A DNA stretch of 14,693 nt from the NCBI GenBank assembly GCA_019752915.1, contig JAIELO010000060.1, forward strand, positions 1 through 14,693. Reading direction: 5' to 3'. The position numbers and the translations under genes are program-made. Under the pieces are notes generated by a model. That model ran no database searches. It saw only the letters and a program-made list of their open reading frames with translations, and was not told the DNA's origin. Positions 9,398 to 10,633 of this stretch are shown piece by piece. The stretch is from Burkholderiaceae bacterium. GTDB lineage: Bacteria > Pseudomonadota > Gammaproteobacteria > Burkholderiales > Burkholderiaceae_D. Each line of letters starts with the position of its first letter. The first letter of the stretch is position 1.

Positions 9398-10633
9398 GTG
9401 GCCTACAAGAAAACTATTGATGTGCAGGCTGCCGTGGCGATCGCTGCGGCAGAAGCGATTAGCGCCAAAACCCAGGGCACGTTCGGGGTAGGTGGCCTGA
9501 TGCTGGATCAGCACGGCAACGTGCTGCAATCGCTGCACAGCAATGTGATCAAGCAAGGTCTGATTTTCGATCCGACCGCGCATGCCGAGCGCCAGCTGAT
9601 CGACTGGTATTACGCGGAGCTGGCACGCGGTGTCGACCTGCCAGCGCCACAAGACATCACCATCGTCACCTCGCTCGATCCCTGCTGCATGTGTGCCGGG
9701 GCGATACTGGCCGCCGGCTTCAATGTGCTGGTGGCGGCACCGGATCACAGTGCCGGCGTCAATTACGATAGCAGCGCCCATTTCGAGGCCCTGCCGGCAC
9801 CACTGCGTGCGACGGCAGCGGCCAGCTTCAGCTATCCGGCGGTGCTGGGCGCGTCGTCCTACCGGCGCACCGCCTCAGGCGCCGCGCCCAAACCATTTTT
9901 CATCGGCAAGACCATTGCCGAACCTACCCAGGCGCTGTGCTCACTGGTGTTCGAAGCCACCTCGGAGGCGGTGATGGCCTTGTTCCAGACTGATCTGCCG
10001 GGTGAGGAGCTGCACGATGTGGCCACGCTGCCAGCCGATCACGCCATCGTGCATGGCCTGAAACAGCTGTATCCAGATGCGCTGACCTATCGCTGCACGC
10101 CACAGCAACCCGATGCAGGACTGGCGCCGTTTTTGCGGCAAGCCATGTTGCGCGATCGCGAGCAGGGCGGTGCCGGCGATGCGGTGGCTTTGCTGGACCG
10201 CTTTGGCAACTTGCTGCTGTGTATGAGCGGCCGCCTGAGCCAGTCGGGAATCCGCACTGCCTTCATGGAAACCACGCGTGCCTATGCGCAGCTGCGTTTC
10301 AAACTGATGGCGGGGGCGACGCCGGAACGTCAGGAAGAAGTGCGCCGTTATCTCGGTCATCCGAAGGAGGGCACGTTCGTGTTTGCGCTGGGGCCGGATG
10401 CGAGTGCCTTGAGTTTCATGAATCTGGGTGCTTACGGCTCGACCATGGAAGGGCCACTGCCGGCCTACAATCCGGCACAATTCCAGTATGTGCTACCACG
10501 TCTGGCGGACGCTGCATTGACGGGACTGTGCGCAGCCATGCCGCCGCTGTATCGCGACACCATACGGATTGCTCCCGTGCCGGTCGCCGATCAGGCGCTG
10601 GTGAGCGAACTGAAGACCAGCGCCGGATCGTAA
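9398..10633 (+). CDS. Two-domain CDA-fold deaminase: active zinc domain plus degenerate second copy
   Basis: The N-terminal domain (about 1-160) is a zinc-dependent base or nucleoside deaminase. HAERQ (62-66) supplies His62 and Glu64, and [12 protein letters not shown] (93-104) supplies Cys96 and Cys99. The PCxMCxGAI pattern resembles the TadA/guanine-deaminase branch more than cytidine deaminases. Residues about 245-380 look like a second copy: [10 protein letters not shown] (264-273) matches [10 protein letters not shown] (34-43), AFMET (288-292) replaces AHAER, and [10 protein letters not shown] (331-340) replaces [10 protein letters not shown], so zinc ligands His, Cys and Cys are all lost while Glu291 remains. 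The GTG at 9398 is the first possible start, since an in-frame TAA precedes it; its ribosome site is poor. It is last in the salvage operon, 39 bp after cdd. The substrate is unknown; a purine base or nucleoside is plausible. The 3' end overlaps the opposing VOC gene by 43 bp. Confidence 0.8.

Follow-up and report, generated by a model that had tools for sequence, protein, structure and literature searches.

The last gene of a nucleoside operon on contig JAIELO010000060.1 (Burkholderiaceae bacterium, assembly GCA_019752915.1), designated DD here, encodes a 411-residue protein. Its best overall explanation, held at somewhat below an even chance, is a zinc-dependent purine-nucleoside deaminase with two domains of the catalytic deaminase (CDA) type in one chain, which would feed the xanthosine phosphorylase XapA of the same operon. 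The window analyzed is the whole stretch of 14,693 nucleotides. The substrate is probably a purine nucleoside, and it is slightly less likely than not to be guanosine or deoxyguanosine in particular. The linkage of the DD family to XapA is new here and narrows the likely substrate.

Among 195 sampled genomes of the taxonomic family, the DD gene (E 1e-30) is present in 43 and XapA, above the cut-off, in 54. All 43 DD-bearing genomes also have XapA, and DD occurs in none of the 141 XapA-negative genomes (Fisher's test, 3e-33, a value that ignores descent). The 11 genomes with XapA and no DD all belong to genus g3, one sampled member of which has both. In one genome with XapA and without DD (G298), the operon is complete through cdd, and DD and the glyoxalase-like gene are both unmatched. 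Because DD is found in this taxonomic family only where XapA is, and not the reverse, DD may well precede XapA in the pathway, with a purine nucleoside as its substrate. XapA cleaves xanthosine, inosine, and guanosine (PMC3923242), and XapR responds to xanthosine (PMC2395238). In two genomes of an enterobacterial-looking family (G968 and G954), xapA, an MFS transporter gene, a LysR gene, and DD follow each other on one strand, with the profile names of transporter and regulator taken from G968 only. The xapAB-xapR system of Escherichia coli likewise combines XapA with an MFS transporter and a regulator of the LysR type, but differs in that the DD gene of G968 gave no DNA match by blastn in 20,395 E. 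coli records.

The DD open frame, 411 codons beginning 39 bases past cdd, lies exactly where the initial annotation placed it. It is a real and conserved gene, since relatives with 46 to 96% identity over most of its length occur at 52 genome loci, nearly all from Oxalobacteraceae. The source genome bin, 60.69% complete, holds one copy. That it closes a nucleoside operon, also claimed initially, is borne out by gene order, Pfam assignments, and the relatives' loci: the genes for purine nucleoside phosphorylase, phosphopentomutase, DeoC, aldehyde dehydrogenase, DeoA, and Cdd all precede DD in 49 of the 52. Among the exceptions, L047 has four of the six genes, and L032, cut by the locus end, has cdd.

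Pfam, PDB, and structure comparisons identify the N-terminal half as a zinc deaminase of the TadA/guanosine-deaminase type, in agreement with the initial reading. DD scores 37.7 bits against the zinc deaminase superfamily PF00383 (cut-off, 25), and in the predicted structure (AlphaFold model, pLDDT 97.4) the N-terminal domain superposes on solved deaminases, which places it within the CDA fold. A search of PDB sequences turned up no full-length relative. The residues of the zinc site are listed in Table 1. Position 48 is Asn in 290 of 299 aligned family rows and Ser in the window protein; the corresponding Asn69 anchors the substrate in plant guanosine deaminase (PMC9739398). Ser48 (9539 to 9541) and Ala63 (9584 to 9586) occur together in the window protein and in 4 of 47 aligned loci (L003 to L006, those closest to the window), and the other 43 have Asn48 and Gly63. 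Such paired substitutions next to the zinc, seen in a single small group, could reflect a change of substrate.

The second half had been described as a duplicate of the first and as a zinc-dead deaminase domain. In the AlphaFold model both halves share the element order α-β-β-α-β-α-β, with offsets between matching elements of 231, 230, 230, 225, 238, 240, and 253 residues, six of the seven falling between 225 and 240. The four motif pairs recognized by eye are present in the order given, and H62, C96, and C99 correspond to F289, D334, and A337 at the positions reported. Their identities are 5/10 (pair 34/264), 2/5 (61/288), 2/10 (93/331), and 3/11 (123/357); the first three (offsets 230, 227, and 238) match the structural register, and the fourth (234) does not. 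Local alignment of the halves gives a z of 3.0, with 1.45% of 2,000 shuffles equally good, and end-free global alignment a z of 4.0, with 0.15% equally good. Profile-profile comparison of the family halves, which speaks against two CDA domains, aligned 10 to 16 columns at E 0.05 to 0.15, compared with E 0.086 for a control of N-half and linker; in a repeat with supplied secondary structure the secondary-structure score was 0, so that structure did not count. The proposed duplication is supported by the predicted element order, is weak by sequence, and gives no signal in profile-profile comparison.

A chance resemblance, in which the C-half is another α/β domain with the same element order and no duplication took place, would account for this failure of the halves to align above the control. 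It would also fit the Pfam results, in which the window C-half has no match and 41 family C-halves (E up to 1) retrieve five chance-like families and no deaminase, and the search of PDB sequences with a C-half profile, which finds no deaminase and a spectrin helix as best match (E 0.012). In the structure-comparison list of the whole model against the PDB, the N-domain fills the list and no row covers the C-half only. Such a resemblance is nonetheless unlikely in view of the common element order with six of seven offsets at 225 to 240, a global alignment that beats 99.85% of shuffles, and three of four by-eye pairs within the structural register. Given the shared element order in the model and the loss of the zinc ligands, a pseudo-deaminase domain is the most likely identity of the C-half. 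Among the aligned family rows listed, the counterpart of His62 is Phe, Leu, or Tyr, that of Cys96 is Asp, Asn, Ser, Glu, Leu, or Thr, and that of Cys99 is Ala, Ser, Pro, Thr, Leu, or Val. The Glu said to be kept in the second half is present in the window protein, but across the family position 291 is Glu in only 208 of 299 rows (Asn in 62, Leu in 16; Glu in 50 of 121 rows of a smaller set), so Glu291 is not a kept catalyst. The zinc-dead reading therefore retains its lost ligands and element order and gives up the catalytic vestige.

The C-domain is not decaying, and its constraint is about equal to that of the active half. Positions conserved at 95% or more number 22 of 135 in the C-domain, 37 of 119 in the N-domain, 6 of 110 in the linker, and 3 of 41 in the tail. 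The ratio of nonsynonymous to synonymous substitution rates (dN/dS) is 0.037 to 0.126 in the C-domain, 0.032 to 0.136 in the N-domain, and 0.099 to 0.304 in the linker, in eight comparisons with relatives, several of which have dS above 1. The most conserved stretch of the C-half runs from L343 to G352, with G344 in 299, Y346 in 295, T349 in 293, and E351 in 291 of 299 rows. Yeast cytosine deaminase uses its C-terminal tail to close or shape the active site. Across 15 structure rows with this enzyme, the last aligned residue of the DD model is 350 to 352 in 11, opposite the yeast C terminus; it is 361 in one and 196 to 198 in three. Guanosine deaminase also closes its active site with its own C terminus (PMC9739398). 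From the conservation of L343 to G352, these alignment ends, and the analogy with guanosine deaminase, we infer that the C-domain may cap the active site.

In the mechanism proposed, the N-domain would bind zinc through H62, C96, and C99, and the chemistry would take place there, with Glu64 shuttling the proton. The C-domain, with all its zinc ligands lost, would pack on the N-domain and close or shape the active site with the L343-G352 loop. The most likely reaction would be (deoxy)guanosine to (deoxy)xanthosine, after which XapA, encoded in the same operon, would take over the product, and phosphopentomutase, DeoC, and aldehyde dehydrogenase would process the sugar. Guanosine to xanthosine is the leading guess because adenosine deaminase and guanine deaminase are both above their cut-offs in 41 of 41 genomes (30 with DD and 11 without) and because cdd is adjacent. 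The window phosphorylase has a Tyr at the position of Tyr191 of E. coli XapA, a residue important for xanthosine. If DD makes xanthosine, bacteria would possess a guanosine-to-xanthosine route so far ascribed to plants, the source of the XapA substrate would be explained, and a bacterial pseudo-enzyme domain would be fused to a purine-type deaminase. It is possible, but on balance doubtful, that DD represents the first family of guanosine deaminases from bacteria, with an active site formed between a live and a dead domain in tandem and a gene that travels with xanthosine phosphorylase, and that it is also a candidate for the gene behind the guanosine deaminase activity long known in bacteria (EC 3.5.4.15). 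That activity was reportedly described from Pseudomonas, species of which carry DD family members.

Several observations weigh against a guanosine deaminase tied to XapA. Guanosine to xanthosine is no missing step, as XapA splits guanosine and guanine deaminase is present. Cys107 of plant guanosine deaminase, which contacts the 2-amino group (PMC9739398), and Asn69 correspond to Leu93 and Ser48 in DD. The co-occurrence is confounded by descent, with DD and XapA each found in 6 of 44 genera. DD and XapA lie on separate contigs in G831, DD occurs without XapA in the Chitinimonas-like genome G021, and no operon genes surround it in the Paraburkholderia locus L052 or in the viral-collection contig L079. 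Members outside clade II of the family tree (see below), such as those of Pseudomonas, cyanobacteria, and Cytophaga, are not known to neighbor XapA; the gene context considered for clade I is that of G021.

Other substrates can be weighed on the same evidence. Deamination of modified or damaged purine nucleosides from RNA or DNA breakdown (e.g., N2-methylguanosine or 2'-O-methylguanosine), fitting them for XapA, is improbable. Such a nonstandard role would explain why DD is retained when all 41 genomes tested have adenosine and guanine deaminases, and plant guanosine deaminase also accepts 2'-O-methyl- and N2-methylguanosine (PMC9739398), but none of the neighboring genes seen hints at modified nucleosides. 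It is more improbable still that DD deaminates adenosine or deoxyadenosine and that XapA then cleaves the resulting inosine: a dedicated adenosine deaminase is above the cut-off in each of the 41 genomes, and CDA-type enzymes acting on free adenosine are not known to be common. The same count makes it unlikely that DD is the missing adenosine deaminase. Least probable of all is that the protein is what databases name it, a cytosine deaminase or the tRNA adenosine deaminase TadA, carrying a superfluous domain at its C terminus. Machine-assigned names for family members include TadA, cytosine deaminase, and nucleoside deaminase, the first two probably wrong. These names agree with the PF00383 match and with yeast cytosine deaminase being among the best profile matches. 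However, in NCBIfam DD matches only the TadA model (NF008113), at 22.6 bits against a cut-off of 150, which places it outside that family, and the cytidine and cytosine deaminase models give no match at E 0.1. These models include TIGR01354 for Cdd, which the neighboring cdd does match, and TIGR01355 and PRK09027 for E. coli Cdd. Moreover, the operon already has cdd, and TadA is a single-domain tRNA enzyme.

As a purine-nucleoside deaminase, DD would resemble several known systems in part. E. coli Cdd has the same layout, an active N-domain and a broken C-domain in one chain, and is of the pyrimidine type. The pairing of active and dead deaminase domains in one protein is thus already known. 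Vertebrate CDADC1, a dCTP deaminase, has two CDA domains, one without the catalytic Glu (PMC12184417); it differs from DD in that its active domain is the second, it acts on dCTP, and it is vertebrate specific. The plant guanosine deaminase GSDA (Arabidopsis; PDB 7dbf and 7dc9) shares with DD the HAE/PCxxC zinc site and the catalytic Glu, but it has only one domain, which its own C-terminal Tyr185 caps. Guanosine deaminase has been described as occurring in plants only (PMC8616923). From TadA and ADAT2/ADAT3, DD differs in having both domains in one chain and its gene within nucleoside catabolism. No description of a two-domain enzyme of the TadA/guanosine-deaminase type in nucleoside catabolism was found in searches of the open-licence PMC literature. 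The enzyme is not peculiar to the source genome and belongs to a wide family.

The second half is a constant feature of this widespread family of proteins of about 410 residues. Protein searches, each started from one of three members, returned 674, 845, and 844 matches at E 0.001, each from 8,000 scored candidates limited to 0.55 to 1.75 times the query length, so that a single-domain sister would escape. The best 120 of each search (358 to 565 residues) include proteins from Duganella, Massilia, Ralstonia, Caballeronia, Paraburkholderia, Bradyrhizobium, Pseudomonas, Chitinimonas, Cytophaga, Microcoleus, Okeania, Archangium, and Nannocystis. The family spans several phyla, with members in Oxalobacteraceae, Pseudomonas, myxobacteria, cyanobacteria, and Cytophaga. 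A midpoint-rooted tree of 29 members has two main clades, both with support of 100/100. Clade I contains Pseudomonas, myxobacteria, cyanobacteria, Cytophaga, and Chitinimonas; clade II contains most Burkholderiales members, the enterobacterial-looking genomes, Bradyrhizobium, and the window protein. In genome samples of other lineages, with the source genome and the genome at the center of each sample counted in, the gene is sparse, at 2 of 300 genomes at order level (single-sequence query), 2 of 398 at phylum level, and 1 of 205 at class level. Samples around G831 gave 3 of 149 for its family and 1 of 247 for its order. A Burkholderiaceae-like family sample gave 0 of 200, an empty answer that by itself shows nothing.

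Some family members show further peculiarities. The C-terminal extensions of P0135 (Microcoleus, 541 residues) and P0166 (565 residues) are weakly DUF5648-like (E 0.004 and 0.0004, below the cut-off). Three plasmid records of Sinorhizobium match DD in two separate segments; in one of them (L071, 5671 to 10115), the frames for phosphopentomutase and phosphorylase are broken and lie, together with a DeoR-like regulator (below the cut-off), upstream on the other strand. In G021 (L073, 12982 to 15319), DD lies near a putative phage holin (PF16931). A pattern scan of viral contigs found one DD-like locus, L079, with open frames that, judged only by eye, resemble bacterial ones. A defense or phage role was rejected: three family members had no match to PADLOC antiphage defense models at E 0.01, and P0217 had none in 50,697 phage records.

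Table 1. Features of the window, with the elements of DD given by residue number (H, helix; E, strand)
Feature	Position	Strand	Details
xapA, xanthosine phosphorylase (purine nucleoside phosphorylase II)	2053..2892	+	TIGR01699, 406.4 bits (cut-off 370.9); PDB 1yqq, E 1.1e-114
Phosphopentomutase-like metalloenzyme	2945..4138	+	PF01676
deoC, deoxyribose-phosphate aldolase	4135..5097	+	PF01791
Tandem aldehyde dehydrogenase (start codon uncertain)	5098..7533	+	PF00171, two stretches; PDB 6mvr, full length, E 4.9e-302
deoA, thymidine phosphorylase	7577..8938	+	PF00591, PF02885, PF07831
cdd, single-domain cytidine deaminase	8951..9358	+	TIGR01354, 136.9 bits (cut-off 113.65)
DD, two-domain deaminase gene	9398..10633	+	GTG start; last gene of the operon
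CDA domain, residues 7-125	9416..9772	+	H9-26 E32-36 E41-47 H63-76 E88-93 H97-106 E109-114
Ser48, position of the substrate-anchoring Asn	9539..9541	+	alignment
H62-A63-E64, zinc ligand and catalytic Glu	9581..9589	+	H62 and E64 in 299/299 aligned rows
P95-C-C-M-C99, zinc ligands C96 and C99	9680..9694	+	both Cys in 299/299 aligned rows
Linker, residues 126-235	9773..10102	+	mostly helical, short strands, weak conservation
Predicted pseudo-deaminase domain, residues 236-370	10103..10507	+	model, element comparison, conservation; H240-255 E262-266 E271-277 H288-304 (H309-318) E326-331 H337-350 E362-366 (model)
F289-M290-E291, in place of the H-x-E motif	10262..10270	+	F289 in 290/299 aligned rows
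D334 to A337, in place of the P-C-x-x-C motif	10397..10408	+	alignment rows
L343-GAYGSTME-G352, proposed active-site cap	10424..10453	+	alignment rows

Neither a sigma-70-like promoter nor a convincing terminator was found around the DD gene, and the window has no Rfam match. The tandem aldehyde dehydrogenase, 811 residues with a full-length PDB match, is presumably of the ALDH16 type with an inactive second domain, which would make it a second active-plus-dead pairing within the same operon. Divergent from the operon lies a gene for a PfkB-type sugar kinase with an N-terminal winged helix-turn-helix (646 to 1788, minus strand), present in 48 of the 52 relatives' loci; it is possibly a sugar-sensing regulator. 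On the other side, a glyoxalase-family gene (10591 to 11040, minus strand) stands tail-to-tail with DD and overlaps its last 43 bases. Farther downstream of DD lies a LytTR response regulator and histidine kinase pair (11120 to 12828, minus strand), found in 41 of the 52 loci.
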